This document shows, piece after piece, positions 15,885-47,013 of a DNA stretch of 64,000 bases (position 1 is the stretch's first letter; every line of letters starts with the position of its first letter). A program made the translations under genes and the position numbers. Location of the stretch: contig JAFLSK010000002.1 of assembly GCA_022510945.1 (NCBI GenBank), forward strand, positions 1 through 64,000, given 5' to 3'. This DNA comes from Ruminococcus sp. (GTDB lineage: Bacteria; Bacillota; Clostridia; Oscillospirales; Acutalibacteraceae). Below the pieces are notes generated by a model. It was not told the origin of the DNA. It was given only the letters and a program-made list of their open reading frames with translations, and did not search any database.

Positions 15885-16544
15885 ATGAGGAAGATTATTA
15901 ATAAATCGCTCGCTGTGCTTTGCATCTTTGTAATTGCGCTTACGATTGGTGCAACCTCATGCGCGGCTACGAGCACTTTGCTCGGCGACGTAAATCTCGA
16001 CGGAACTCTCTCCAGTCGCGACGCTACCGTTATTCAGGAGTACCTCGCTTTAAAAATCACTCTCACCGACGAGCAGAAAGCTATCGCAAAGGTCGCAGAT
16101 GGCAAAAAACTCTCTGTGATTGACGTAACACTCATTCAGAAAAAGATTGTGAACCTGATAGGAAAATTTCCTGTTGAGGACGGAGTAGATAACGTGAATA
16201 CCAAGAAGAACACCATAAAGGTAGGGAATACCGAATTTAATCTCAGCCTTGAGAACAACGACACCGCAAAGGCGTTCCGAAAAATCCTTCCGCTCACACT
16301 AAATATGAGCGAACTTAACGGCAACGAGAAGTACTATTACCTCGACGAAAGTCTGCCGTCAAATCAGCAGAACGTCGGTAATATCACCGCGGGTGACGTT
16401 ATGCTCTACGGCGACGACTGCATTGTCATATTCTACAAGAGCTTTTCGACCTCTTATAAATACACAAAAATCGGTCATATTACAAATCCCGACGAACTCC
16501 AAAACGCCCTCGGCAGCGGCCGCGTGAAGGTCACATTTGAATAA
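15885..16544 (+). CDS. Secreted protein with N-terminal dockerin type I and C-terminal cyclophilin-like domain
   Basis: Signal peptide; LGDVNLDGTLSSRDATVIQEYLA / KLSVIDVTLIQKKIV; LPLTLNMSELNGNEKYYYLDESLPSNQQNVGNITAGDVMLYGDDCIVIFYKSFSTSYKYTKIG. Confidence 0.85.
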   Translation: MRKIINKSLAVLCIFVIALTIGATSCAATSTLLGDVNLDGTLSSRDATVIQEYLALKITLTDEQKAIAKVADGKKLSVIDVTLIQKKIVNLIGKFPVEDGVDNVNTKKNTIKVGNTEFNLSLENNDTAKAFRKILPLTLNMSELNGNEKYYYLDESLPSNQQNVGNITAGDVMLYGDDCIVIFYKSFSTSYKYTKIGHITNPDELQNALGSGRVKVTFE

Positions 16545-21018: not shown

Positions 21019-24000
21019 ATGAAAACACAAATCAAACGTTTATCAAAATCAACGTTAGCTGTTATCATGACTATCTGCATGCTTATATCGTGCTTGATGG
21101 TTGGTACGATTACGACTAATGCTGCTTATAGTAATCACTTTATTGAGTATAATAGCGCAGGTTCAGGCAAAGTCTACTTTAATTCCAGTGGTTCTTTAAC
21201 TATCACCCCTGAGTCGACTGGTAAAATGTATTTCCATATCTGTCGTGATGACTGGGGGAATGATGGTTGGTTCGGTAATGGTCAAACTGTTACATCTTAT
21301 AACACTGAATATTCGCAAACTCAATACAATAGCAGCTGGGATGGTATAAATGTTACTCAAGGTGTAGCTTTAACTTTTCAGTTAACCCAGGAAGGTACTA
21401 CTGTAAAGTATAAAGTCTCTCTTGCTGCCACCGCCGACCCGAAATATTACGTAGCAGATTGTTCAAGCCTTACTGGTTCAAGTTCTAGTGAATTGACCAC
21501 TAAATCAGGCAATGACTACTCAAGAAGTTATTCCGGTAACAATCAAACGTATGAGTTTAGAATTAAGAAAGATAGTGCTTATGTAGACGTTCAAGGATTT
21601 ACTGATGGCGGCGGTTTAGATGAAATATACTGGGTACAAGGCAAAACCAATGTTATCGCATTCACTCCGTCAAACAATGGTTGTACAGTTACTATAACAT
21701 TTAATTCGTCTACTAATAAAGTCACAGTAAAAGCAACCGGCGGTACTGCGCCCAAGACGAGATATTATATTGTAGGTCCAAGTCCGATTGGTAAGAGTTG
21801 GACCGACTACACAGATTCTAATTATGAATTGACCGATAACGGAGACGGCACCTATTCAAAGACATATACTTCCGGTTTAAATGCCAACACAAACTATGAT
21901 TTCTTTATTAATAAATACACTAGCTCAAATAGTTTTGTGTATTCTTATAATGTCAATATTAGTAGTTCTGAAAATGTTACTACGGGAAGTAACGGCAATA
22001 ATATCAGATTTAGTATTGGTAAGTCAGGTTTTACCTCTGTTACAATAACATATAATCCGTCTACCGGAGCTCTTAACATATCCGCAGTATTCCCCGAAGA
22101 AAAATATTATGTAACGGGTGCGGGTGCAACTAATGATGATGACGGTCTTAATGGTTCTCAGAGATGGGGCGATACTCCTTCAAACGGTCTTATGAAAAAG
22201 GGCACCGGCAATACATATTCTATAACATATACCGGCGTAAACAAAGGAACATATAGAATAAAAGTAAAAAAAGCAGATACTTGGAACGGTGCATGGGGTG
22301 CCAGCGCAACATCAAGTTCCGGTAATGCTATATCAGGTATATCCGATAGCGACGGTAATGCACTGTTCCAGATTACTAAGAACAATGCGACTGTTACCGT
22401 AACACTCGACCTTGATTATAATAACGGTTACGGTTGGGTTACTGTAACTGCACAAAGCAGCGAACAGGATACAAACGTAATCTACGTTGATAATCAGACA
22501 AATCAGACTGTATATTTCTATGTATATAGCACCGGTGGTGCTAAACCTGTAGGTGACTGGAATGGTCTGAAGCTGGAAAGCGGTGCATCAAATGCTACCT
22601 CAGCTGCTAACGGTATTTCCGTTTCAATGCAGAGCGGTATGTACGTTATCACCGGCCTTACAAAGGGTCACTATATTATCTTTAGCTTTGAGGGTGGTAG
22701 TTCCGCTACTCAATCTTCTCCTTATACGGTAACATATGGCTCGACTTACACCCTTACGAAAAACAGCAGCGGCAAGATTATAGCTGATGTTCAGACAGGC
22801 ACCGGCTCTGAAAGTGACTTCGTAGTATCGGTTAAAGGTAACCCGGGATATATCGACGACGACTTCTGGGATAACCCGAGAGAAATGACGAGCCGTGACG
22901 ACCTCAGAGCTTACCTTTATTCATATGAGGTTCCGAATATTTATTCAGCTACACACACCGATGAATTTAAAATTCAGATTGATTATTTGAAGAACTCATA
23001 TACATTCTGTGCTCAAGCAAATAGCGGACAGATAACTGCTCCGAGTAGTAAACCAACATCATATAATACTTGGCGTTCTGATCAGGCAAGCTTTAAATTC
23101 TCCCATGAGTCCAATTATAAATACACAATATGGGTCGAAATCAGCAAACCTTCCGATAACGAAGGTAAACCTGACGAAGTATTTGTATGGGTTACCAAAG
23201 AACTGTTAGGAACTGACGAAGTATATGCACATGTAAACGTATATGCTAAGGACGGTATGGTTCGTGATAATTTCTCCGGTCTTGGTAAAATGGCGGATAC
23301 AGAAATCATCAACAGCGACTATGTTCAGGGTATTGCAGACGGAACTCCCGCAGCCGGCAACGCAAGCGAAGGCTACCAGACCGCTGTTGCAACAGTAGGC
23401 CAGCCGATTCAGGTGAAGACTACACTTACCAGCACTTACAAAGATAAGTACTATGTAAGAGGATTCTGTATCAACGGTAGAACCTACGATATCTATGAAT
23501 GGAACGAAGACGGTGTATATACGCTCGATTACGTTATTCCTGATTCCTATGGGGATTCCGGTTCGCCAACATTCCTCGAGATTACTCCTGTTTACTATCT
23601 TAAGAATACTGATAACACTGTAGTTCTTCAGATCAGTAACTTCGACTCTATCAGAGAGTCTACCGGAAAAGCCACCAAAGGCGGTTGGGGTAACACATTC
23701 TATGCATACTTCTACTACGATAACGCTGATGATGCCCTCGGTCAATATCCGGGTCAGCCGGTTATCTATCAGGGTGGTATCGGCTATGTCCAGGTTCCAA
23801 TCAAGGTTACTCCTAAAGGCTCAGGTACAGGCGAGGTTAAAGGTCTTACTTTCAATAACGGCAACTTTGATCAGGTGCATGCTACCCTTATGGGTTGGCA
23901 GTCAAGCAATGATTACCAGTGCCAGACATACGACTACGACGACTTCGTAAAGATTTACAAAGAGAAGAATCCAACTCTTATCAACTTTACTATCCAAAAC

Positions 24001-26394
24001 AGAACCAGCAAGGATAACCCAGCTTCCGGTAGTATATCGTCTTCATACTCTGATGACCAAATGAAAAGCACATTTACTAACGGTTGGAACACGCTCAGAA
24101 ATTATAATGGACTTCCTGTTGACCTCTTTGGTAATGCTCTTGACTCCAACCAGCAGAGTAAAACTCCTCTCAGAGTTGTATCCAACGGTTATGTTAAGAG
24201 TAGTGTAGGTACTTATGCTACAGAATGGATAGTATTCGCTCCGAACGGAACACAGTACAATCTTGTTACTAATGGCGATTTGAAAGGTCTCCCGCCTTCA
24301 GCTTTAGTTATAAATAATGCAGATAATTTCTCTAACTATGACAACATTTCGAACGAAGGCGAAAAAATATCAAAATATAAGGCCCTCTATGAGACCCTTA
24401 AAGCATCATATGAAGGCGTACCTGTACTGATTACTTACGAGAAGAACCTCTATCAAACTAATGCTAACCGTCTCGACGGTCGTTGGACCTATGCTACGGC
24501 AGCAGACAAAGCTTCCGCAAATATCATTATCGAATATCGCGATAATGACAGTGCAAAATGGACTGAAGATCCGTTTAAAGACGGTACAAACGAGGGTAAT
24601 CACACAGGCGCTAAGGCGTACTTCACAGGCGAATATAATGGCCAGACATCTGTTGAAGATGTATTAAGTAACCCGAACGAGTACTTCCATTTTAATGCTC
24701 AGAACGGTACGGCTACGACCTCAGGTCAGTATGTATTTGACCACTGGGCACTCTATGACGAAGCAGAAGGCACATATACTGAAATTGATACGAACGGCTC
24801 GACAGTAGGCTCGCACATCAAGATGGGTGATATCACCCTCGTAGCTCGCTTTAAGCTTGTAACAAGCGGATTCCTTACACTTTCTCACGAGCTGTTTACC
24901 GATAAAACATACTTCGGTTTTGGTAAAACTGAGATTAAGGTTGATATTTATAACGATGATGGTTCGTTCTATAGACCGATTTCCGACTGGACTGAAGGTG
25001 CAGTTACAATCAACAGTTCTTACATCAAATCAAACTCTTCAAGAAACGTTATTGTAACACTGAGAACTACAAGTGGAGCTTATGATAATTTTGTAAAATT
25101 TGGTATTAACCGTGAATCTGGAATCAACTCCCGATTCTTTACAAGTAGTTTGGGTGTACCGGATGTGATTGATACAAGTCGAGGCGGAGTCAGCACAAGA
25201 ATGTTAGACTTCAGTATAGCAGATTTGTTCGACGATAGTAACAATCAGGAAGTTAAGTCAATTACTTATTACTCTTATATCACGACTCAGAAGTATACCT
25301 ATGATATTACCTACAAATACAACAGCAGAATCTGGGGTACACAGACCTATAAGGTAGCTGGCACATTCTACGAAAGTGATTTTGAGAAGTACGCAAGTGG
25401 TACTAAATTACTTGAACAGTTCATTATTGATAGTGCTCCTGCAGAGAAAAACTTCAAAGAGACAGTTACCTGGGATCCTTCTGATTCCACTAAGATAACT
25501 CAGTCCTACGCTAACAACAAATTCACTGTAACACTTACAGCTAAGCAGGAAAAAGACACTAAGATAACAGCTCGCTTCAACCTGCCGTTTGCTTATGGCA
25601 GCCATAAAGCTAACGAAGAATTTACTGTAGATATAGGCACAGACGGTCTCTTCAAGGAAAACGGTAAGTTCATCACAGCCGAGAAGATGAATGGCGGTAA
25701 GTACTTCAACCACTGGCTCATTACCGACTTGAACGGTAAGGAAATTGCAAAGTGCTTCTACATTGATTTCAACTTCTCCGCTTACCAGAATGTTAAGGTT
25801 ACACCTGTTTACACAGAGAAAGATAATTACTATCAGGAAGGTCTTGAAGAGAAGCAGGGTGCTACAGTAAGCTTCCTTGAGGATTCCCGTAACCAGTGGA
25901 ATGACAATGCTGGTTCAAACTCCGAAGCTAATCCTGGTGACGTAGTATTCACAGACTTCCAGCTTGCATTCTCCTACAAGAGTCTCCAACTCAACAAAGA
26001 AAGTGCTGATAATTACAAGATTGGTCTCTTCATCGAGGATCTCGGCCAGTTGTATGACCTTGGTAACGGTAAGCAGACCGATATGAGCAAATACGAGGGT
26101 AACTTCGAAAGCTCGGCAGATGCGTTAAAGACACAGCTGAGCGGTAGTAAAGGTTCATTCGTAGGCACACCGGCAGCAAATATTAAACTTTCTCTTGGAG
26201 ACCTTGACAACAAGAACCAAATGCATTATTATTACTATATGTACGCGAGTGCAAACGGACAAACATACTCCAGAACTAATAAGGTATTCAGAGCATACGC
26301 TTATATCGGTGTTAAGGATGCTAACGGTAAGTGGACATATGAAGTTAGTGAAACTCCGGTTTACTTCACAATGTATTCTCGCGTTAATGGTTAA
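21019..26394 (+). CDS. Giant (about 1791 aa) secreted protein with repeated putative glycan-binding modules
   Basis: Signal peptide; tandem YYV/YYI-starting beta-rich modules (about 21430-22455); GGAGGT RBS; no LPXTG or dockerin seen. Confidence 0.8.
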   Translation: MKTQIKRLSKSTLAVIMTICMLISCLMVGTITTNAAYSNHFIEYNSAGSGKVYFNSSGSLTITPESTGKMYFHICRDDWGNDGWFGNGQTVTSYNTEYSQTQYNSSWDGINVTQGVALTFQLTQEGTTVKYKVSLAATADPKYYVADCSSLTGSSSSELTTKSGNDYSRSYSGNNQTYEFRIKKDSAYVDVQGFTDGGGLDEIYWVQGKTNVIAFTPSNNGCTVTITFNSSTNKVTVKATGGTAPKTRYYIVGPSPIGKSWTDYTDSNYELTDNGDGTYSKTYTSGLNANTNYDFFINKYTSSNSFVYSYNVNISSSENVTTGSNGNNIRFSIGKSGFTSVTITYNPSTGALNISAVFPEEKYYVTGAGATNDDDGLNGSQRWGDTPSNGLMKKGTGNTYSITYTGVNKGTYRIKVKKADTWNGAWGASATSSSGNAISGISDSDGNALFQITKNNATVTVTLDLDYNNGYGWVTVTAQSSEQDTNVIYVDNQTNQTVYFYVYSTGGAKPVGDWNGLKLESGASNATSAANGISVSMQSGMYVITGLTKGHYIIFSFEGGSSATQSSPYTVTYGSTYTLTKNSSGKIIADVQTGTGSESDFVVSVKGNPGYIDDDFWDNPREMTSRDDLRAYLYSYEVPNIYSATHTDEFKIQIDYLKNSYTFCAQANSGQITAPSSKPTSYNTWRSDQASFKFSHESNYKYTIWVEISKPSDNEGKPDEVFVWVTKELLGTDEVYAHVNVYAKDGMVRDNFSGLGKMADTEIINSDYVQGIADGTPAAGNASEGYQTAVATVGQPIQVKTTLTSTYKDKYYVRGFCINGRTYDIYEWNEDGVYTLDYVIPDSYGDSGSPTFLEITPVYYLKNTDNTVVLQISNFDSIRESTGKATKGGWGNTFYAYFYYDNADDALGQYPGQPVIYQGGIGYVQVPIKVTPKGSGTGEVKGLTFNNGNFDQVHATLMGWQSSNDYQCQTYDYDDFVKIYKEKNPTLINFTIQNRTSKDNPASGSISSSYSDDQMKSTFTNGWNTLRNYNGLPVDLFGNALDSNQQSKTPLRVVSNGYVKSSVGTYATEWIVFAPNGTQYNLVTNGDLKGLPPSALVINNADNFSNYDNISNEGEKISKYKALYETLKASYEGVPVLITYEKNLYQTNANRLDGRWTYATAADKASANIIIEYRDNDSAKWTEDPFKDGTNEGNHTGAKAYFTGEYNGQTSVEDVLSNPNEYFHFNAQNGTATTSGQYVFDHWALYDEAEGTYTEIDTNGSTVGSHIKMGDITLVARFKLVTSGFLTLSHELFTDKTYFGFGKTEIKVDIYNDDGSFYRPISDWTEGAVTINSSYIKSNSSRNVIVTLRTTSGAYDNFVKFGINRESGINSRFFTSSLGVPDVIDTSRGGVSTRMLDFSIADLFDDSNNQEVKSITYYSYITTQKYTYDITYKYNSRIWGTQTYKVAGTFYESDFEKYASGTKLLEQFIIDSAPAEKNFKETVTWDPSDSTKITQSYANNKFTVTLTAKQEKDTKITARFNLPFAYGSHKANEEFTVDIGTDGLFKENGKFITAEKMNGGKYFNHWLITDLNGKEIAKCFYIDFNFSAYQNVKVTPVYTEKDNYYQEGLEEKQGATVSFLEDSRNQWNDNAGSNSEANPGDVVFTDFQLAFSYKSLQLNKESADNYKIGLFIEDLGQLYDLGNGKQTDMSKYEGNFESSADALKTQLSGSKGSFVGTPAANIKLSLGDLDNKNQMHYYYYMYASANGQTYSRTNKVFRAYAYIGVKDANGKWTYEVSETPVYFTMYSRVNG

Positions 26395-26415
26395 TATGAT
26401 GTTTGGAGGGATTTC

Positions 26416-26565
26416 ATGAAAAAGAAATATTTATCTCCCGAATTTGATTTCCATGAGATTGAATTTGTTGAGGACATTTTAAACATAAGCGATCCGCATG
26501 AGACAAAGTCCGGTACCGGTAGTGGCGGTGGTGCTGGTGAAACCGACGGCCCATTAGACTGGTAA
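26416..26565 (+). CDS. 49-aa peptide, putative RiPP-like precursor or small secreted peptide
   Basis: MKKKYLSPEFDFHEIEFVEDILNISDPHETKSGTGSGGGAGETDGPLDW; tttggaggg RBS; 21 nt after the giant ORF; shorter than the ORF-track cutoff. Confidence 0.75.
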   Translation: MKKKYLSPEFDFHEIEFVEDILNISDPHETKSGTGSGGGAGETDGPLDW

Positions 26566-26577
26566 AACACATAATTT

Positions 26578-26603
26578 GCAGGCAGTACTGCGGTACTGCC
26601 TGC
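26578..26603 (+). terminator. Terminator after 49-aa peptide gene
   Basis: GCAGGCAGTAC-TGCG-GTACTGCCTGC then tttt. Confidence 0.85.
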
Positions 26604-26628: not shown

Positions 26629-27501
26629 ATGAAAAAATTAAGAAGAATTTCTGCTTTATTTTTATCCTTAATTTTAATTGCTGTTACGGTGGTGCAGATC
26701 AATGCTGCCACGGTTTATCAGCTTGACGGTTATTCCTATACTGTAATAAGTACCGGTCTTATTTCTCTTTATGACTGGGATAATCGCTCGACGACTTTAA
26801 CTGTTCCTGAAAAATTAGGCAATAATTATTTTTATGAAATAGGCGATTATTCAATTAGAGGGAACTCCGTGATAACCGTTCTCGACCTAAAAAATGCAAA
26901 ACGCCTGAACCGTATTGGCATTATGGCGTTTGAGAATTGCCCGAACATCTCCGGTGAGGTTTTTATTCCGTTTACTGTCGGTCAAATCGGACTTGGCGCA
27001 TTCCAGGGTTGCACTTCTCTCGAAACTGCGACCATTGATGCGAACGTTAGTGCCATTCCGGCGCAGTGCTTTAACGATTGCACTTCCTTGAAGAATGTTG
27101 CTCTTCCGAGTATGCTGTCTAGGATTGAGAAGTTTGCTTTCGCTGATTGCACTTCTCTCGAGTCGATTTTGATTCCAAAAAACGTTGTGTATATCGACCC
27201 GACTGCTTTCGAGAACGATGATAACCTAGTAATTCACTGTTACGCTAATTCGACCGCGCACCAGTTCGCTGTCGAGAATGGTTACAAATTTTTCCTCGTT
27301 GACCGAATTCTCGGCGATGTTAACGGAGATAGGAGCATTGATATTCTCGATGTAACCCGCATTCAGAAGTATAGAGCTGATCTTGTTACGTTTGATGAGG
27401 CTGAACTCGAGCGCGCTGACGTTAACGGCGACGGCAAGGTAACAATCCGCGACGCAACTTTGATTCAGATGTTTATTTCAGAGACAATCACAGAATTTTA
27501 G
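26629..27501 (+). CDS. Secreted leucine-rich repeat (BspA-type) protein with C-terminal dockerin type I
   Basis: LGAFQGCTSLETATIDANVSAIPAQCFNDCTSLKNVALP...; ILGDVNGDRSIDILDVTRIQKYRADL / RADVNGDGKVTIRDATLIQMFI. Confidence 0.9.
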   Translation: MKKLRRISALFLSLILIAVTVVQINAATVYQLDGYSYTVISTGLISLYDWDNRSTTLTVPEKLGNNYFYEIGDYSIRGNSVITVLDLKNAKRLNRIGIMAFENCPNISGEVFIPFTVGQIGLGAFQGCTSLETATIDANVSAIPAQCFNDCTSLKNVALPSMLSRIEKFAFADCTSLESILIPKNVVYIDPTAFENDDNLVIHCYANSTAHQFAVENGYKFFLVDRILGDVNGDRSIDILDVTRIQKYRADLVTFDEAELERADVNGDGKVTIRDATLIQMFISETITEF

Positions 27502-27587: not shown

Positions 27588-27851
27588 ATGAAGATAAAAG
27601 AAAATTTCTTGCTGCGTAAAATTTCCGACGCCTACGTTGTAGTTCCCGTAGGCTCAGCCGTGGTTGATTTCAGCGGGCTCGTTAACCTCAACGAGAGCGG
27701 CGCTCTGCTCTTTGAAAAATTGCAGAACGGTGCAGAGGAATCCGACCTCGTCGCGTTACTTCTTGAGGAATACGACGTGAGTGAAGAGCTCGCCCGTGCA
27801 GATGTTAAGAAATTTATTGAAAAGGTAAAGGACGCTGATATCCTTGGATAA
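27588..27851 (+). CDS. PqqD family protein (RiPP recognition element-like)
   Basis: SDAYVVVPVGSAVVDFSGLVNLNESGALLFEKLQNGAEESDLVALLLEEYDVSEELARADVKKFIEKV. Confidence 0.9.
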   Translation: MKIKENFLLRKISDAYVVVPVGSAVVDFSGLVNLNESGALLFEKLQNGAEESDLVALLLEEYDVSEELARADVKKFIEKVKDADILG

Positions 27852-28284
27852 AAGAATCGACCTCAAAGAGCTCGTCCCGATTATGCAGGAGCAACTGGAC
27901 GCGGGCAAAAGCGTTTCGTTCATACCGCGTGGCAACAGTATGCAACCTTTACTCGGCGACGGCACGGATATGGTAGTCCTTAAAAAACCCGAGGGAAGAC
28001 TCCACCTTTTCGATATGCCGCTTTATTACCGCAGAGAGACGGACAAGTACGTCCTCCACAGGGTAGTCGGCTTTCGTAAGGACGGAACATATGTTATGCT
28101 TGGCGACAACAACGTACAGCGTGAGTACAACATTGCCGACGGCGACATTGTCGGCGTAGTAACGTCGTTTTACCACAAGGGCAAGATGTACAGCACAAAG
28201 CACCCTTTCTATCGGCTGTACTGCAATGTATGGTACTATACACGACCGTTTAGAAGATTGTTTTCATATTTAAAACGTAAGTAA
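27844..28284 (+). CDS. S24/S26 family peptidase (signal peptidase-like)
   Basis: SFIPRGNSMQPLLGDGTD (Ser), YVLHRVVGFRKDGTYVMLGDNN (His in place of Lys); TTG start overlapping pqqD-like gene. Confidence 0.87.
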   Translation: MDKRIDLKELVPIMQEQLDAGKSVSFIPRGNSMQPLLGDGTDMVVLKKPEGRLHLFDMPLYYRRETDKYVLHRVVGFRKDGTYVMLGDNNVQREYNIADGDIVGVVTSFYHKGKMYSTKHPFYRLYCNVWYYTRPFRRLFSYLKRK

Positions 28285-28296
28285 CAGGAGACAGTT

Positions 28297-30018
28297 TTGA
28301 AGATTAAACAAAGACTTTCAAAGTCGTATCTTAACGGAATTAAAAAATTTGACAAAGAAACAACGCTTTGGATAGCGCGCAATGCAAAGCCACAGCTTGG
28401 CAACATAATTCTTATGACCGTGCTTTACGGTGTTTGGGCGTACACGGGCGTTGCTGTTGCGCAACTTGCGCGGGAGATTATCGACTCAGCCGCGTACGAT
28501 AAGGATATGAGCAAGGTGATATTCTTCTCGGCGTTGCTTCTCGGCGTGACAATTTTGCAGGTTGTCGTAAATATAACGTCAAGAGTTACAATTTTCAACG
28601 CACGAAATAAGCTTGAAATAAGCATAAAATCCAAACTTTTCGAAGGTATGCTCAAAAAGGATTACGCAAAAATCACATCTTACCATACGGGTGAGTTGAT
28701 GAACCGAATTACAAGCGACGTGAGTGTGATTACGAACGCGATTGTCTCGATTGTACCGAGTTTTGTGTTTTTTGCAGTAAAGCTAATCGGCATTTTTGCC
28801 GTGCTGTTTTCTATCGATTGGCGGTTTGCGATTGTTTTTGTAATCGGCGGAGCAATTATTATGTTTGTAATGTTGATGTTTAAGGGCACGCTTAAGAACC
28901 TGCACAAAAGGGCGCAGGAATCGGACGGAAAGACCCGCAGCTTTATGCAGGAGTCGCTGTCGAGTCTGCTTGTTATCAAGGTTTTTAATAAGTACAAGCG
29001 CATTTCGGACGAGTCCACTAAGCTGCAATGGAATAATTTCCGCATAAATCGCAGGCGGAACTACGTTTCAATAGCTTCCACAACGGGTTTCGCGGTTGTA
29101 TTTACCTTTGCATATATATACGGCCTTGTGTGGGGCTCATTCGGTATTTTAGCTGGTACACTGACGTACGGTATTCTTACAGAGATTCTCTCCCTTGTGT
29201 CACAGATTCAGAACCCTGTCCAAGGACTCACCTCGGTTCTGCCTCAGTATTACCAGGCTCTCGCATCTGCTGAAAGAATTATGGAGATTGAGGACTTCCC
29301 CGAGGAGCGCACTATAGACACAAACGTAAAAATTGATCTCGACGACCTTTACACTAAGCTTAACTCAATTGAATTCGAAAACATTACATTCAGCTACGAC
29401 AGAGACACCGTGCTCGAGAACACAAGCCTAAGCATTAAAAAGGGCGACTTCGTTGTAATAACCGGTATTTCAGGTATAGGCAAGAGCACGCTCACAAAGC
29501 TGTTACTCGATGTTTTCACCGTAGATGAGGGCGAAATTTACTTGAGCCTTTCTGATGGTTCGAGCGTTGGTGTCGATAGAAATATCCGCTCGATGTTTGC
29601 GTATGTTCCGCAGGGTAACTTTCTGATTTCGGGTACTATTCGCGACAATATCTCGTTCGTACGTCCCGAGGCGAGCGAGGAAGAAATCCTTGCGGCAGCG
29701 AAAATTGCTTGCGCCGACTTCATCGACGAACTTCCCAACGGGCTTGACACTATGCTCGGTGAGAAGGGAATGGGTCTCTCCGAGGGACAGATTCAGCGCG
29801 TTGCCATCGCTCGTGCTATCCTCTCCGGTGCGCCGATAATTATTCTTGACGAGGCAACCTCGGCGCTTGACGAGGCTACCGAAATCCGACTTCTTCAAAA
29901 TATCGAGACGCTTCAGAACAAAACCTGCATACTGATTTCCCACAAAAAGGCAGCGAATACTGTATGCAATAAGGAAGTCAGAATTGAAAACAAGAAGATT
30001 GAAATAAAGGACATTTGA
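28297..30018 (+). CDS. ABC transporter, fused permease/ATPase, no N-terminal C39 peptidase domain
   Basis: TM domain; ITGISGIGKSTLTKLLLDVF, LSEGQIQRVAIARAIL and IIILDEATSALD; TTG start with aggag RBS. Confidence 0.93.
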   Translation: MKIKQRLSKSYLNGIKKFDKETTLWIARNAKPQLGNIILMTVLYGVWAYTGVAVAQLAREIIDSAAYDKDMSKVIFFSALLLGVTILQVVVNITSRVTIFNARNKLEISIKSKLFEGMLKKDYAKITSYHTGELMNRITSDVSVITNAIVSIVPSFVFFAVKLIGIFAVLFSIDWRFAIVFVIGGAIIMFVMLMFKGTLKNLHKRAQESDGKTRSFMQESLSSLLVIKVFNKYKRISDESTKLQWNNFRINRRRNYVSIASTTGFAVVFTFAYIYGLVWGSFGILAGTLTYGILTEILSLVSQIQNPVQGLTSVLPQYYQALASAERIMEIEDFPEERTIDTNVKIDLDDLYTKLNSIEFENITFSYDRDTVLENTSLSIKKGDFVVITGISGIGKSTLTKLLLDVFTVDEGEIYLSLSDGSSVGVDRNIRSMFAYVPQGNFLISGTIRDNISFVRPEASEEEILAAAKIACADFIDELPNGLDTMLGEKGMGLSEGQIQRVAIARAILSGAPIIILDEATSALDEATEIRLLQNIETLQNKTCILISHKKAANTVCNKEVRIENKKIEIKDI

Positions 30019-30019
30019 T

Positions 30020-31174
30020 ATGGCAATTGCACTCAACACAGCGCAAAAACAATTTTATACTCTGTATATTGACCTTTTAGCGTCTGTGCTGAACGGCACT
30101 CAGCCGCCGAGCCTACCTGAGGACTTCAACTGGGAGTACGCCTGCCGCAACGCTCAGAATAACTCGGTCGCTAATATCCTATCCTATACGCTCGACAAGG
30201 TAAACGTCAAGCCGTCGCAGACGGTCATAAATGTCCTCAAAAACGAACAGCGACTCCATATTCTTAAAGAGACGTCGCAGCTATTTGACGTCGAGAAGGT
30301 GCTTGCACAGTTCGAGAAAGAGGGTATCAAGAACATCCCTCTCAAGGGGTATTTTATGAAGCACCTTTATCCGCAAACCGACCTTCGTACTATGACGGAT
30401 ATTGATATTCTCGTCGATAAACGTGACTTCAAGAAGATCGAGCAGGTTTTCTTGAATCTCGGCTATAAGAACGCGAATGTTTTGAACGCGCGGGAAATTC
30501 ATTTTAAGCGCGATCTTCTTTATTTCGAGATACAGAGCACTATAAATTCAAACAATGACAGCTTTTTTGACGATATATGGAGCAGGGTAAAGCCCAGAGA
30601 CGGATACAGTTATTCCTACGAAATGTTGCCCGAGGATTTCTATCTCTATATGGTTTACCACACCGCAAAGCATTTCAAAAGCGGCGGAATGGGTATCAGA
30701 ATGGTTATGGATATTTGTGTGTTTCTTAACGCTTGCCCAAACCTTAACTTCGATTATATAAGTGAAAGACTTCGTGAAATGGAGCTCTCCGCTTACGAGC
30801 AAAAACTCAGGGAGCTGTCCGTGAATTGGTTCTCAGCAGAGCCCACGCAAATCAACGCCTTCGGCGAATTTGTCCTCTATTGCTCGACCTACGGACAGCG
30901 CGTGGTATCGTTTTTCCAGTCCAATCAGCGCACGGAGCACGGCTATTGGATTAAGCAGTTTTTTCCACCGTATTCGAGAATGAAAGGACTATACGACTAC
31001 CTAGAAAAATTCCCGATTTTACTTCCGTTTTCGTGGGTACAATATTGGGGCAGACGTGCGCTTTTTGACCGCGATATTCACATAAAGCGAGGCATAACCG
31101 AGCGCGCGAACAACCTCGATAAGGAGAGCGGAGAATTTCTTATTAACCTTATGAATGAGCTCGAAATAAAATAA
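30020..31174 (+). CDS. Nucleotidyltransferase family protein (NTP_transf_5/PF14907-like)
   Basis: IPLKGYFMKHLYPQTDLRTMTDIDILVDKRDFKKIEQVFLNLGY. Confidence 0.88.
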   Translation: MAIALNTAQKQFYTLYIDLLASVLNGTQPPSLPEDFNWEYACRNAQNNSVANILSYTLDKVNVKPSQTVINVLKNEQRLHILKETSQLFDVEKVLAQFEKEGIKNIPLKGYFMKHLYPQTDLRTMTDIDILVDKRDFKKIEQVFLNLGYKNANVLNAREIHFKRDLLYFEIQSTINSNNDSFFDDIWSRVKPRDGYSYSYEMLPEDFYLYMVYHTAKHFKSGGMGIRMVMDICVFLNACPNLNFDYISERLREMELSAYEQKLRELSVNWFSAEPTQINAFGEFVLYCSTYGQRVVSFFQSNQRTEHGYWIKQFFPPYSRMKGLYDYLEKFPILLPFSWVQYWGRRALFDRDIHIKRGITERANNLDKESGEFLINLMNELEIK

Positions 31175-33460: not shown

Positions 33461-35056
33461 TTAGCTTACTTTCGCGAGGTATTTCTGTATTGCGGTGACG
33501 TCAATGACGTCTATCTCTCCGTCGCCGTTGAAGTCGGCGTTTGTAAGCTGATCATCGCTGAGGTCTAATGTGACATCTGCAAGATATTTCTGAATCATTG
33601 TTGCGTCGCTGATATCAACCTCGCCGCTGAAGTCCACATCGCCGCCGAGCTTCGTGTCAAACGTGCCTTTCGTTATCGCTTTTATCACGAGTGTCCCGCC
33701 GATATCGTCATCAAGATATGTTTTGTAGAATTCCTTGGCGTCGATGAATTTACCTTTGTACGAGATAAAGGATTGTCTTCTTTTGCACGGGTCGGTAAAC
33801 ACCAATTCTCCGTCTGAAGCGCTTCTGAGCCATTCGCTTACGCCGATACCGTTCAAAACGTAATTGTCCTTGTCGACGTTTTCGTTTATTTTTTCGGTGT
33901 TAATCTCTACGGCGATTGCGCCTTTAGTCTGAGATAGTATTTTGTTGTCGATGTCACAGCAGGTGTATCCGCTGAAATCCACCGTGCCGCCTGAAAGCTT
34001 TTGCCATCTTTGCGTTGCCTGAACAGGTGCGCCGTCCTCGTCAACAGGCACATAGTAAACATTATATTCAGCGCCGACGGATGTCGATTCAAAGACAACC
34101 TTTTCGAGAACGTTTCCGTTTTCGGCAAAGTCGAATACATTGAAGTAGATTACGTCCTTGTCGTCAACGTATTGGAATTCGTACGTCGCACCGTAAAACT
34201 CGTTCTGGTAAATGCTTCTGTCCTCGGTAATTTCAATCATCTCTTCAATCATATAACTCGGGCCGAAAAATTCGTCGTTGAAAAGATAATAATCCTCGTA
34301 CGAAATCCAAAGATATCCGCCGATACGGTTATCGTTCGGACCCCAGCTGTTCTTGCACAGCCATGCGCCGTCCTCCTCGGGCGTGTATTTTCCGTCGAAG
34401 TTTTCCTTGCTGTAGTTATCGTCCCAACCTACGACCGAAACAGTATGACCATTAATCGAAGGAATTTTGCTTGTGAGAGCGAAGGAACAGTTGTCTTGGC
34501 TATAGGCTCGGGTGAAGCTATTGAAGTTAGCCGTAACCGCGCCGCTGTTCATAATTGATTTTTTGATTAGGCTTCTGTTGTTTCTGTCAGCGTAAATCAG
34601 CGAGCTTACGCCGTAGCCGGCGGATTCACCGTTTTCGCTTTCTGGGCCGCCCCAACTCGTAAAGTATCCGATAGGAATGTATGTAAATCCCGCCTCGAGC
34701 GGGTCTCTCTGCCAGCCTGTCCCGTCCTCTCGAACAGTTCCCCAGATATCGAGCGCGTTTGTGCTAAGTGCAAACCTGAAGGCGTTGTTCTTGAGCAACG
34801 CTGTTTCAAAGGAGGAAATTGCCGCATACGCCCAGCATACGTTGCCAACCTGCCTTTTAACGTCTGTGCAGTGCCCGAGCTCAAGCGAACTGTATTTTGA
34901 GGGCAAAGTATCCTCCTCATCCTGCTCGATTATCTGCTCGGGCGCGTCGTATCCCGTCGCACGGCTGCCGATTGTTGCCGCGTTAGCGGAAAGTGTAGAG
35001 CCCGAGATTAATGCAACTATAAAAATTGTCGTAAGAATTTTAGTAAATTTCTTCAT
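33461..35056 (-). CDS. Secreted C1 (papain-like) cysteine peptidase with C-terminal dockerin
   Basis: QVGNVCWAYAAISSFE, INGHTVSVVGWDD, WLCKNSWG; LGGDVDFSGEVDISDATMIQKYLADV / NADFNGDGEIDVIDVTAIQKYLA; start corrected to 35056. Confidence 0.9.
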   Translation of the reverse strand: MKKFTKILTTIFIVALISGSTLSANAATIGSRATGYDAPEQIIEQDEEDTLPSKYSSLELGHCTDVKRQVGNVCWAYAAISSFETALLKNNAFRFALSTNALDIWGTVREDGTGWQRDPLEAGFTYIPIGYFTSWGGPESENGESAGYGVSSLIYADRNNRSLIKKSIMNSGAVTANFNSFTRAYSQDNCSFALTSKIPSINGHTVSVVGWDDNYSKENFDGKYTPEEDGAWLCKNSWGPNDNRIGGYLWISYEDYYLFNDEFFGPSYMIEEMIEITEDRSIYQNEFYGATYEFQYVDDKDVIYFNVFDFAENGNVLEKVVFESTSVGAEYNVYYVPVDEDGAPVQATQRWQKLSGGTVDFSGYTCCDIDNKILSQTKGAIAVEINTEKINENVDKDNYVLNGIGVSEWLRSASDGELVFTDPCKRRQSFISYKGKFIDAKEFYKTYLDDDIGGTLVIKAITKGTFDTKLGGDVDFSGEVDISDATMIQKYLADVTLDLSDDQLTNADFNGDGEIDVIDVTAIQKYLAKVS

Positions 35057-35190
35057 TGTAAACACCAAAATATTATCAATTATATACACAATAATTCTAC
35101 CACTGTTCGCGTCTAAAGTAAAGAGCAAAATCATAGAAAATACGCATAGTTTCAGGTAAATTCCGCCATAATAGATACGGGAGTGATTAT

Positions 35191-42817: not shown

Positions 42818-42930
42818 ATGTTTTTATTCTAAATTAGAAAATTATTGTTTGACTAATTTGTTATAATTACTCTGTAAATCTATATTAATCATATTGGGAA
42901 GTTTTGGGATTTACCGAAGGAGGAACTTTT

Positions 42931-44610
42931 ATGAAGAAAAAAGGAATTAAGGTTTTAGGCCTGTTTCTTGCGGTAGTTATGGTGCTTTCCTGCTGTGCAG
43001 TAGCAGGTCTGTCCGTTTCCGCCGCTACGGGTGACGTTGTTTATTTTGATAACTCTGTCACACATTTCTCAACCGTAAACTGCTATATGTGGTATGACGG
43101 CACTGAAAATAACAACGGTAGTTGGCCCGGTAAGCCGATGACAAATGTGTCAGGCGATATCTGGGCATATAACATTGACGGAGATTATGATAAGATTATC
43201 TTCAACGACGGCGGCACACAGTCCGACGACTTAAATTACCCAGGTAACGGACAGATTGCTAAGCCCAACGGCAACGGCAACAAGTTCGGCGTATCCTGGT
43301 CAGCATATTCGGGCGATACAACACTGCCCACCTCTGCAACAACTCCGACATCAGGCGGCTCTTCGTCAGGCGGAAGTTCATCAGGCTCATATTCAATCTA
43401 CTGCCAGAACGACGCAGGCTGGTCAAGCGTTTACTGCTATATGTGGAACAGCGGAACTGATACAAACGGTAGTTGGCCCGGCGTTCCTATGACAAGCCTC
43501 GGCGACGGCGTGTGGGAGTATAACTACTCCAAGCAGTACGCTAACGTTATCTTTAACGGCGGCAGCGATGCAAATAAGACAGGTGACCTCACCACTCCGT
43601 CTGTTACATCAATTTACAACAATAGTTCAAACTCGTGGGAGCCTTATAGCTCAAGCCCCGTAAAGATTACAAGCTTTACATCAAGCATTCAGTCTCCCGC
43701 GTATACTAACTGCAGCATTAAACTTACAACAGTGGCTAAGTCTGCAGCGGGTTCTCTCTACTATAAGTACACTGTAAACGGCCCGACAGGCGAGTCAGTG
43801 CTCTCCAACAGCGCCGCTTCAAGCGTTACCTGGATTCCGACAGTAGTGGGCACCTACAAAGTAACGGTAGAGGTTACCGACACAGCCGGCAACTCTAACA
43901 GCCGTTCTCTCGACTTCGTAATTAATGACCCGAGCCTGCTCGAAACTGCGTTCATCAGCGCATTCTCGAACTCACTCGGAACAAATACTCAGATTAAGCA
44001 GAACACGAACATCACCTTCACGCTTACTGCTCTCGGCGGTCACACAGGTAATAACCTTCTCTTCTACAAGTTTATTATCGTAGACCCTAACGGCGGCACA
44101 AACACGCCTTACTATACAACAAGCAATACCTACAGCTACACTCCCACAAAGCTCGGCGTGTATACAATACAGGCGTATGTTCAGAACTCTTACAACGACA
44201 CTGTAAACGGGACATACACCTACACCTGCGTGGGAGATATTTCCGAAACTCCCGAAGATACATCTCCTGCTCCTGTTCAGCCAACTACAAGTGCTGCTAC
44301 TGAGAGCACCACTGCTCCGACTGAAAGTGTTCCGGGCGGCGTAACGCCACAGCCTACCACTCCGTCGAGCGCTACAGATGCTCCGTCAGAATCCGTGACA
44401 ACCCCGAGCCAAAAGACCGAGCGCGGCGATGTTAACGGAGACGGTGTGGTTGACGTTATTGACGTAACAACTCTCCAGAAACACCTTGCATCTGTTTATG
44501 TTCCTACATTCATCGAGAGTCAGGCTGATACTAACAGAGACGGTGCAATCAACATCAAAGATGCTACACGCATTCAGGAGTATCTCGTAGGACTTGTTTC
44601 ACAGATATAA
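42931..44610 (+). CDS. Secreted starch-binding protein: two CBM26-like modules, Ig-like region, Thr/Pro/Ser linker, dockerin
   Basis: VNCYMWYDGTENNNGSWPGKPM and VYCYMWNSGTDTNGSWPGVPM; RGDVNGDGVVDVIDVTTLQKHLASV / ADTNRDGAINIKDATRIQEYLVGL. Confidence 0.88.
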   Translation: MKKKGIKVLGLFLAVVMVLSCCAVAGLSVSAATGDVVYFDNSVTHFSTVNCYMWYDGTENNNGSWPGKPMTNVSGDIWAYNIDGDYDKIIFNDGGTQSDDLNYPGNGQIAKPNGNGNKFGVSWSAYSGDTTLPTSATTPTSGGSSSGGSSSGSYSIYCQNDAGWSSVYCYMWNSGTDTNGSWPGVPMTSLGDGVWEYNYSKQYANVIFNGGSDANKTGDLTTPSVTSIYNNSSNSWEPYSSSPVKITSFTSSIQSPAYTNCSIKLTTVAKSAAGSLYYKYTVNGPTGESVLSNSAASSVTWIPTVVGTYKVTVEVTDTAGNSNSRSLDFVINDPSLLETAFISAFSNSLGTNTQIKQNTNITFTLTALGGHTGNNLLFYKFIIVDPNGGTNTPYYTTSNTYSYTPTKLGVYTIQAYVQNSYNDTVNGTYTYTCVGDISETPEDTSPAPVQPTTSAATESTTAPTESVPGGVTPQPTTPSSATDAPSESVTTPSQKTERGDVNGDGVVDVIDVTTLQKHLASVYVPTFIESQADTNRDGAINIKDATRIQEYLVGLVSQI

Positions 44611-44628
44611 GGATTGAGGTAAGCAGCA

Positions 44629-47013
44629 ATGAGTTTTAAAAAAATTGCGGCTCTGATTCTGACATTGGTGATTTGCATTTCGGCGGGCGCGCTGTCTGTA
44701 CAGGCAGCCACCGCCGGCGAGAATACCGCTGCTGAGGAATCTTCCTCAATTATCGTACACTTTAAGAGCACAGACGCAGAGCCATATGTATATTACTGGA
44801 ACTCCCTTCCGAAGAATATTGAGACGAAGTATCCGGGCGTAAAAATGACAAAAGACCCTAACGAAGGCGAGGATTGGTATACCTATAAATTTGATAACGT
44901 TACCAAAATCAATATGCTCTTCACCGACAAAAACGGCAACCAACTCTCCAAGGAACTGACCCGCAACAGCGGTGAATGGTGGTACAAAAACAAAATCTGG
45001 AGCAAGACAAACAGGGAAAAGGGCGACAACGCTGAGGATATCGACTTCCGCGAGGAGTCTATCTACTTCGTTATCACCACCCGTTTCTACAACGGAGACA
45101 AGAGCAACGATGTTCACTGCTGGGACGATGGTGTTGCTAACAACCCCGACTCCGACCCCGCGTGGCGCGGAGACTTCAAGGGACTTGCTCAGAAGCTTGA
45201 CTATATCAAAGCTCTCGGCTTCTCAGCAATATGGATTACTCCTGTTGTAGAGAACGCATCGGGCTATGATTACCACGGCTATCACGCTATGGATTTCAGC
45301 AAGGTTGACTCCCGTTACGAAAGCTCCGACTTCACCTATGAGGATCTTATCGAGGCGGCTCACTCAAAGGATATGAAGATTGTGCAGGACGTTGTATGGA
45401 ACCACACCGGTAACTTCGGCGAAGGAACACTCTGCAAACTCTTTGAGCGCGACTATAACGCAGACCTTTCCAACCTCCAGGAGAGTATGATTCCTACAAA
45501 AACTCTCCTCGATGCCGCAGGAGTAAAAACTGCTGCTGAGTATTGGGCTCTCCAGCCCGGAAAGCAGTACGATGCTCGTCTTAACCTTATGAAAAACGTA
45601 ACGTATGCCGGCAGCAACGGCAACGGTACGAAGGGCTATCCCGAGGAAAAGGACTACAGCATCAACAAGCTCTCCGATAGCGATAAATATAACGCAAACA
45701 ACTATTGGCACACAGGCTACTTCCAGAATCCGAACTATGATGACTGGACGACGAAATTCTCGCAGATAGCAGGCGACTGCGTTGACCTCAACACCGAGAA
45801 CCCTGCTGTAGCTGAATACACAACCGAAGCATACGCGCAGTATATCAATATGGGCGTTGACGGCTTCCGTGTTGATACAGTTCGTCATATCCCGAGACTT
45901 ACTCTCAATATGATGTACAACCCGCAGATACTCTCAGCTGCTCAGGACGCCGGCAAGAACGGATTCTATATGTTCGGCGAAATCTGTACACGCTACACTC
46001 AGGTCTGGTACAGAGGCCACGCTGAGGAATCAGCTCCTTACTACACCTGGAAAGAAAGCAACGACAAGTGGGAAAAAGCGTGGAAGTGGGATACAAGCAG
46101 AGAGTCTATCAACTCCAATATGAACCTCACCTTCGACCACTACATTCAGGAGGACGACCCGAACAAGCAGCCTTCCTCTGACAACGCTTTCTTAAACGGC
46201 ATCACTTACCATAATCCCGACGACTCAAAGGCTTCGGGTATGAACGCTATCGACTTTACGATGCACAGAATGTTCGGTAATGCGGGCTCCGCTTTTGGTG
46301 TAGCAAAGTCGAGCGATAAGTATTACAACGACGCTACATACAATGTAATGTACGTTGACTCTCACGACTACGCTCCCGAGAATCCCGACGAGTTCACCCG
46401 TTTCAGCGGCGGTACACAGGCATGGGCTGAGAATATGGACTTAATGTTCACATTCCGCGGTATTCCTTGCCTCTACTATGGCTCCGAGGTTGAGTTCAAG
46501 AAGGGTGAATTGATTGATAAAGGTACGCTTATCAGCCTCGAGAACTCCGGCCGCGCATACTTCGGCGACTACCTTGAGGGTACAGTTACCGCAAAAGATT
46601 TCGGTCAGTTCAACGCATCGGGCAAGGTTAAGGAAACCCTTGATTCAACCCTTTCAAAGCAGCTCTCAAAGCTCAATATGATTCGTCGTGCTATCCCTGC
46701 TCTCCAGAAGGGACAGTACACAACCTCCTCAAGCTATGTAAGCGGCGATATGGCTTTCATCAGACGTTACACGAACGCTTCCGAGGGCGTTGACTCTCTC
46801 GCATGCGTTGCAATAAGCGGTAGCGCAACATTCAAGAATGTACCGAACGGAAAGTACATCGACGCTGTTACAGGCGATGTTCAGAATGTAACAAACGGTA
46901 CTCTCACCGTCGGCTCAATCGGCAAAGCTAATATGCGCGTATATGTATGCTGCGCATCAGGCTTCACTCCGATTAACGGCAAAATCGGCGGCGACACAAC
47001 ATATCTCAAATAA
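44629..47013 (+). CDS. Secreted alpha-amylase (GH13) with N-terminal starch-binding-like module
   Basis: YYWNSLPKNIETKYPGVKM; YHAMDFSKVDSRY, DVVWNHTGN, GFRVDTVRHIPR, FGEICTRY, YVDSHDYAPEN. Confidence 0.93.
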   Translation: MSFKKIAALILTLVICISAGALSVQAATAGENTAAEESSSIIVHFKSTDAEPYVYYWNSLPKNIETKYPGVKMTKDPNEGEDWYTYKFDNVTKINMLFTDKNGNQLSKELTRNSGEWWYKNKIWSKTNREKGDNAEDIDFREESIYFVITTRFYNGDKSNDVHCWDDGVANNPDSDPAWRGDFKGLAQKLDYIKALGFSAIWITPVVENASGYDYHGYHAMDFSKVDSRYESSDFTYEDLIEAAHSKDMKIVQDVVWNHTGNFGEGTLCKLFERDYNADLSNLQESMIPTKTLLDAAGVKTAAEYWALQPGKQYDARLNLMKNVTYAGSNGNGTKGYPEEKDYSINKLSDSDKYNANNYWHTGYFQNPNYDDWTTKFSQIAGDCVDLNTENPAVAEYTTEAYAQYINMGVDGFRVDTVRHIPRLTLNMMYNPQILSAAQDAGKNGFYMFGEICTRYTQVWYRGHAEESAPYYTWKESNDKWEKAWKWDTSRESINSNMNLTFDHYIQEDDPNKQPSSDNAFLNGITYHNPDDSKASGMNAIDFTMHRMFGNAGSAFGVAKSSDKYYNDATYNVMYVDSHDYAPENPDEFTRFSGGTQAWAENMDLMFTFRGIPCLYYGSEVEFKKGELIDKGTLISLENSGRAYFGDYLEGTVTAKDFGQFNASGKVKETLDSTLSKQLSKLNMIRRAIPALQKGQYTTSSSYVSGDMAFIRRYTNASEGVDSLACVAISGSATFKNVPNGKYIDAVTGDVQNVTNGTLTVGSIGKANMRVYVCCASGFTPINGKIGGDTTYLK

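Follow-up and report, generated by a model that had tools for sequence, protein, structure and literature searches.

The window analyzed here, the first 64,000 nucleotides of contig JAFLSK010000002.1 of Ruminococcus sp., contains an open reading frame (ORF) for only 49 amino acids (aa) directly behind the gene for a very large secreted protein. Does this ORF encode a peptide, to which class would such a peptide belong, and what connects it to its large neighbor? The answers rely on comparison with linear polyphosphorylated peptides (LPPs), a class of RiPPs described by Popov et al. in May 2026 (PMC13381572); no further paper on this class was found in the literature searched.

A short gene and its family

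The ORF begins with the ATG at 26416 and ends with the stop codon at 26565. The GGAGGG motif precedes the ATG by 5 nt, and the preceding ORF, which comprises 1800 aa when read from a TTG and 1791 aa when read from an internal ATG, ends at 26394, leaving a gap of 21 nt. The features of this part of the window are as follows.

21019..26394, plus strand: 1791-aa secreted protein, candidate partner of the peptide; the ORF opens at TTG 20992, and homologs precede the peptide in related genomes
26176..26391, plus strand: C-terminal domain type I (CTD-I), ...LDNKNQ...VFRAYAYIGVK...SETPVYFTMYSRVNG, from the alignment of homologous C-termini
26405..26410, plus strand: ribosome binding site GGAGGG, read from the sequence
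26416..26565, plus strand: lppA-like precursor gene, 49 aa, from the ORF and family homology
26416..26481, plus strand: predicted leader MKKKYLSPEFDFHEIEFVEDIL, 22 aa, the conserved half; cleavage site inferred from LppA
26428..26439, plus strand: YxxP motif for RRE binding (Y5-P8), assigned from its invariant Y and P and by analogy with LppA
26482..26562, plus strand: predicted core NISDPHETKSGTGSGGGAGETDGPLDW, 27 aa, the variable acidic half; boundary inferred
26488..26490, plus strand: Ser25, predicted core Ser3 and candidate phosphorylation site, from Ser conservation in homologs and phosphorylation of S3 in LppA
26578..26603, plus strand: perfect 11-bp stem GCAGGCAGTAC/GTACTGCCTGC, then TTTT, a terminator or partial terminator by fold analysis

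An earlier note, made from the sequence alone, had reported the 49-aa ORF with its sequence, the strong ribosome binding site (ggaggg) and the 21-nt gap, all of which held exactly when the sequence was re-read. Its position behind the 1791-aa secreted protein (1800 aa if started at the TTG) held as well, as did the perfect 11-bp stem terminator, which has a TTTT tail and a fold energy of −27.6 kcal/mol (z = −6.5 compared with shuffles). The claim that the C-terminal half is rich in Gly, Ser and Thr held only in part: the peptide is Gly-rich only in its last third, and acidity is the family-wide trait. A Sec signal is absent. The pattern of the ORF occurs once in the window and not at all in 100 Markov-simulated windows of 64 kb.

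The peptide matched no model in Pfam or NCBIfam, and its profile gave only chance matches against the PDB. Searches for the family with a single sequence operated near the noise, and profiles were required; the single-sequence matches L003 and L007-L012, which lie in long unrelated frames or lack an ORF with YxxP, were discarded. With a profile built from 17 homologs, the peptide was found in 52 of the 60 genomes of the genus, with up to 15 copies per genome (two genomes carry 14 and 15). Across 69 distinct homologs, the first ∼25 residues are conserved and the remainder is variable. Tyr and Pro of YxxP are invariant (69/69) and usually followed by E or D; next come an acidic-hydrophobic-hydrophobic block resembling D-[VI]-L and then a serine, which lies at Y+18 to Y+21 in 66 of the homologs, whereas Ser makes up 6.5% of the tail residues. 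The C-terminal part is net negative in every homolog (mean −5.4) and contains Cys in just one. For most unsaturated pairs, dN was lower than dS in both leader and tail, with dN/dS values of, for example, 0.14/0.65, 0.06/0.56, 0.24/1.01 and 0.11/0.99. Since leaders are conserved and dN is well below dS where it can be estimated, the family is translated. Thus, the 49-aa ORF is a real gene.

Downstream genes and the comparison with LPP loci

LPP synthesis has been studied experimentally in Paenibacillus alginolyticus, where lppAKBSDN encode the precursor LppA, the kinase LppK, the RRE LppB, the SipW-like leader peptidase LppS, the MsbA-like exporter LppD and the NTP transferase LppN (PMC13381572). 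The LppA precursor follows the consensus YxxPxVLxHQxIxFETxxS, and its YxxP is required for RRE binding; LppB contacts the leader Pro and Tyr through N33, D70 (the Tyr-bonding Asp) and F74 (the Phe divider). LppS cleaves the leader only in the presence of LppB, two residues before the phosphorylated serine, and it is core Ser3 that carries the phosphates (PMC13381572). The 49-aa gene is followed, in the same direction throughout, by these genes:

26629..27501, plus strand: secreted BspA-type LRR protein with type I dockerin, 290 aa (Pfam LRR_5 7e-26, Dockerin_1 3e-13), conserved beside the peptide in the genus
27588..27851, plus strand: lppB-like discrete RRE of the PqqD family, 87 aa (PF05402 2.6e-15; TbiB1 1e-8)
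27844..28284, plus strand: lppS-like S26 peptidase with archaeal/SipW-type signal peptidase fold, 146 aa (TIGR02228 7e-6)
28297..30018, plus strand: lppD-like MsbA-type ABC exporter without peptidase domain (PF00664, PF00005; best NCBIfam match MsbA)
30020..31174, plus strand: lppN-like NTP transferase, NTP_transf_5 (PF14907 6.6e-46)

The S26 gene overlaps that of the PqqD-family protein, and the complete order from the secreted protein through peptide, LRR-dockerin protein, PqqD, S26 and ABC exporter to NTP transferase recurs in other genomes of the genus, for example at L049, L053, L055 and L056. When the PqqD profile was compared with the PDB, the only confident matches were TbiB1 (1e-8), TfuB1, PbaB1 and LppB, that is, four leader-binding RREs, which are the nearest solved structures to the protein encoded at 27588. 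Its predicted model (pLDDT 87) superimposes on the TbiB1-leader complex with a TM score of 0.79, and residues N35, D72 and F76 correspond by spacing and alignment to N33, D70 and F74 of LppB, D72 being invariant in 20 homologs. The S26 protein has no apparent transmembrane segment; Ser32, His72 and Asp88 are invariant in 27 homologs, and the model (pLDDT 92) is closest to the solved folds of SPC/SEC11, Streptococcus SipA and LexA.

An HprK-like gene precedes the PqqD gene or follows the S26 gene at related loci (L016, L073, L076 and L078-L086), a label that rests on weak matches (ScmC 8e-7, HprK_rel_A 5e-3). A search for a kinase gene that covered the locus, the whole 64-kb window and the 20 kb beyond it, but not the remaining genome, found none.

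How closely, then, does the locus conform to an LPP cluster? The SipW/archaeal-type SpI leader peptidase is present, although which Asp matches D93 of LppS is unsettled. A discrete RRE that fixes the Tyr of YxxP is present by its profile matches to LppB (9x8z) and PbaB1 (9x90), without any binding data. The short precursor has the conserved YxxP leader, the serine ∼18-20 residues further on and the variable C-terminus, but not HQxIxFET, and its leader block is E/D-D-[VI]-[LI] (DIL or DVL) where LppA has FET. The MsbA-like exporter and the NTP transferase are in the cluster, and, as in LPP systems, there is no macrolactam cyclase. The HprK-like kinase is missing, despite the fact that several related clusters have one, and because this criterion is not met, the locus is designated an LPP-like variant and not a full LPP cluster. 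The hosts and the arrangement differ, too: LPPs were described as restricted to Bacillota and located near capsule loci (PMC13381572), whereas the precursors considered here occur in clostridial and Bacteroidales hosts, at scattered places in the genome and in each case behind a large secreted protein. Taken together, the 49-aa ORF is very likely the precursor of an LPP-type RiPP.

Precursor and peptidase also occur together beyond this locus. In a sample of 300 genomes of the family, the S26 profile matched 125 and the peptide profile 73; the peptidase was present in 68 of the 73 precursor-positive genomes compared with 57 of the 227 others (p = 2e-26, odds ratio 41). Counted by genus, it was present in 36 of 37 peptide-positive genera and in 30 of 98 others (p = 2e-13). 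These Fisher tests were not corrected for relatedness. Several other genera have one peptide copy 1-3 kb from the peptidase gene (genomes G098, G100, G014, G144, G284, G148, G287, G349, G121, G020 and G139).

Some loci depart from this organization. A PqqD-S26(-NTP transferase) operon apart from any peptide gene lies directly behind groES-groEL at L235, L215, L220 (R. bromii) and L208. One genome contains a second maturation cluster (L121, G214:C42) with peptide, secreted protein, dockerin-like protein, HprK-like gene, PqqD and S26, the accessory genes of which (294 and 269 aa, unassigned) differ. Elsewhere in the window, there are a cyclophilin-like protein with dockerin (15885-16544), a papain-like protease with dockerin (33461-35134, minus strand) and, read from the sequence only, dockerin-like and alpha-amylase-like proteins in the region 42904-47013. 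Dockerin and starch-related secreted proteins fit an amylosome-type organism.

Pairing of precursors with large secreted proteins

An ORF of at least 120 aa ends within 250 nt upstream of 57 of the 69 peptide copies; for the other 12 there is no upstream ORF in range. The distance is 35 nt or less for 48 of these 57 copies (median 15 nt), and 40 of the 48 close upstream ORFs encode at least 500 aa. The C-termini of the upstream proteins form few similarity groups, the main ones having 16 members (including the protein of the window) and 21 members, and precursor subfamilies track the CTD subfamilies. In its own genome, the CTD-I profile matches at 26176-26397 (E = 7e-22), the row from the window being itself part of the profile. 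The upstream protein at L124 carries starch-binding CBM26 modules.

The pairing was also examined in reverse. Two CTD profiles run against ten genomes matched at 57 places; 54 of these were inspected, and for 53 the sequence could be read to the end of the gene and beyond. An intact precursor followed in 39 of these 53 testable cases and a disrupted one in two more. A strict script had arrived at 38 of 54, a count from which one spurious case was removed and to which two intact copies were added by inspection. Most of the cases come from just two genomes, G206 and G214. Exceptions were mainly tandem CTD genes within arrays, the last array member then being followed by the peptide. Thus, the pairing of precursor and CTD protein holds in both directions; the gene itself, its family, the gene set and the co-occurrence are shown likewise.

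Tandem LRR/CTD arrays are found at L123, L166, L167, L168, L169 and L170 (G214:C43; G206:C163, C89, C62 and C105). In their inner members, the C-terminus is extended by a short acidic stretch that in most cases contains Trp, and a peptide gene stands after the last member only. That these precursor-less proteins carry a peptide tail fused in cis was considered, given tail-like extensions such as GENSTMFKDVWNNAPFFVV; only one of seven extensions passed a shuffle test and the profile test failed, and a fusion is therefore not claimed.

The relatives are Ruminococcus of gut and rumen, R. bromii among them, so that the bacterium of the window is itself related to R. bromii. Strain R. bromii ATCC 27255 has a single 41-aa precursor (MKKEYSSPEFELVKFKFEDIILTGSLDDTPEATKSDGDDWG) behind a single CTD protein, plus an RRE-S26-NTP-transferase operon.

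The same peptide/secreted-protein pairing is shown by Prevotella-type Bacteroidales. A contig scan found adjacent HprK-like, S26 and PqqD genes at L239 and L240, and HprK-like and S26 genes at L238, in genomes with two to six peptide matches each. In three genomes, eight copies could be located, all of them starting 10-67 nt after the gene for a large secreted protein, and these eight proteins share the C-terminal ending ...IYDLSGRRV...KGIYIQNGKKFIVK. In further genomes of that Bacteroidales family, the ending was recognized by eye in 17 of the 22 copies with an upstream ORF, whereas a strict motif script gave 9 of 29. As in Ruminococcus, the YxxP peptide directly follows a secreted protein that is large and has its C-terminal ending in common with others of its kind; the difference is that the Ruminococcus proteins bear other C-terminal domains. 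The Bacteroidales ending resembles a type IX secretion sorting domain, an identity that remains unconfirmed, no curated NCBIfam or Pfam model having matched. An ORF with an S26-peptidase-like C-terminus precedes a YxxP peptide at L274 (G416, of the same family as the Bacteroidaceae locus L239).

Two inferences of the earlier note are supported by these comparisons: co-transcription with the large protein by the spacing of 10-25 nt behind a large secreted-protein gene at most homologous copies, and a leader/core layout by the conserved first ∼25 residues, the variable rest and the pathway genes downstream. It had mentioned neither the downstream machinery nor the pairing with secreted proteins across the genus and between phyla. 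Machinery and precursor type are already known from LPPs (PMC13381572). What is new, as far as word searches show, is that precursors are dispersed, that they and CTD proteins are paired in both directions, that clusters can lack the kinase and that the system extends to Bacteroidales; "secreted," "surface," "Clostridi" and "Bacteroid" do not occur in the text of that paper.

Proposed maturation, alternatives and meaning

The explanation that accounts best for these observations, and that we regard as likely, is LPP-type maturation followed by extracellular action together with the adjacent surface protein. The RRE encoded at 27588 would bind the YxxPEF motif of the leader, the S26/SipW-like peptidase (27844) would remove the leader by a cut some two residues ahead of Ser25, and transport of the acidic core out of the cell would fall to the ABC exporter (28297). 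The NTP transferase (30020) and a kinase absent from the locus may decorate the serine. Binding, cleavage, export and phosphorylation are all inferred by analogy with the Paenibacillus system. The same analogy places the cut after L22, making Ser25 core Ser3; since the residues before the presumed cut differ from the FET of LppA (DIL in their place), the site is a guess. Polyphosphorylation may not occur here and cannot be assumed, because there is no kinase at the locus. Outside the cell, the core would act with the large secreted protein whose gene ends 21 nt before the peptide gene; the simplest role would be that of a dedicated partner or tether of this protein at the cell surface. This functional partnership is inferred from genome arrangement only, and we lean slightly against it; the tether role is a guess within it. 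It is possible that the pairing reflects co-regulation or duplication as a unit, and not physical partnership, and some copies have no CTD protein as neighbor.

Among the alternatives, a free natural product of the LPP machinery (a signal or bacteriocin), positioned behind the secreted protein merely through shared regulation, remains possible. The patchy distribution of LPPs, typical of conflict genes (PMC13381572), and the variability of cores under a conserved leader speak for it. It fits poorly with genomes that hold as many as 15 divergent copies, every one paired with a secreted protein of its own, with the two-way link with CTD proteins, with the same arrangement in a second phylum and with the acidic, almost Cys-free cores. 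That the product is a small cytoplasmic protein, neither cleaved nor exported, which serves as chaperone-like adaptor or regulator of the synthesis of the large protein, is unlikely. The missing Sec signal and the short spacing, suggestive of translational coupling, would be consistent with this notion, but not the co-occurrence with RRE and S26 peptidase, nor the RRE motif and the serine in LppA register. A leader or attenuator ORF controlling the LRR-dockerin gene beyond the hairpin can be all but dismissed: a hairpin does lie between the two genes, but many copies lack such a downstream gene, and close pairs show purifying selection on the amino acid sequence.

More must be said about lasso peptides, as the RRE is closest in the PDB to lasso B1 proteins (paeninodin; TbiB1, TfuB1, PbaB1), with which it shares the fold and the leader motif. 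The YxxP leader is present, the criterion of a discrete RRE is met, both have an NTP transferase and an ABC exporter in common, as well as the HprK-like kinase found in relatives, and an Asn-synthase-like gene stands beside two homologous copies (L014 and L132). Lasso peptides, however, require a B2 peptidase and a cyclase. Transglut_core3 (PF13471, B2) was absent from the own genome, 13% of which is missing, and from 22 relatives (23 genomes in all), and no cyclase-type Asn synthase is present in the cluster of the window, where an S26 protein takes the place of the leader peptidase. Asn synthase matches in the own genome are two housekeeping-type proteins of ∼630-780 aa and weak fragments. 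The cores, too, are acidic and look linear. A lasso precursor is thus very improbable, and membership in that class was rejected for want of B2 in 23 genomes and of a cyclase at the locus. The Asn-synthase-like gene of the two relatives (∼510 aa; PF00733, GATase_7) is convergent to the pair of peptide and LRR-dockerin genes (L014, 16964-18493, minus strand; L132, G206:C63:4135-5058, minus strand), and its product might modify some family members in the manner of a cyclase or ligase.

The reading preferred here remains LPP-type maturation with action at the cell surface, and it can be extended. LPP-type peptides would then be no free natural products. Each would be exported separately and serve, outside the cell, as the dedicated partner (tether or assembly factor) of a giant surface protein, with one RRE-S26 machine per genome for many pairs, in Ruminococcus-type Bacillota and Bacteroidales alike. 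For this bolder view, the evidence does not quite tip the balance in favor. Short-ORF filters conceal a gene family that reaches 15 members per genome, and LPP-type loci may explain part of the roughly 4,000 discrete lasso-like RREs, among 8,000, that have no lasso enzymes. The role of LPPs has been stated as unknown (PMC13381572); the pairing with large secreted proteins, some of them starch- or surface-binding, in the R. bromii group and in Bacteroidales is a first concrete lead on their function, and R. bromii ATCC 27255 is a cultured strain in which this lead can be tested.
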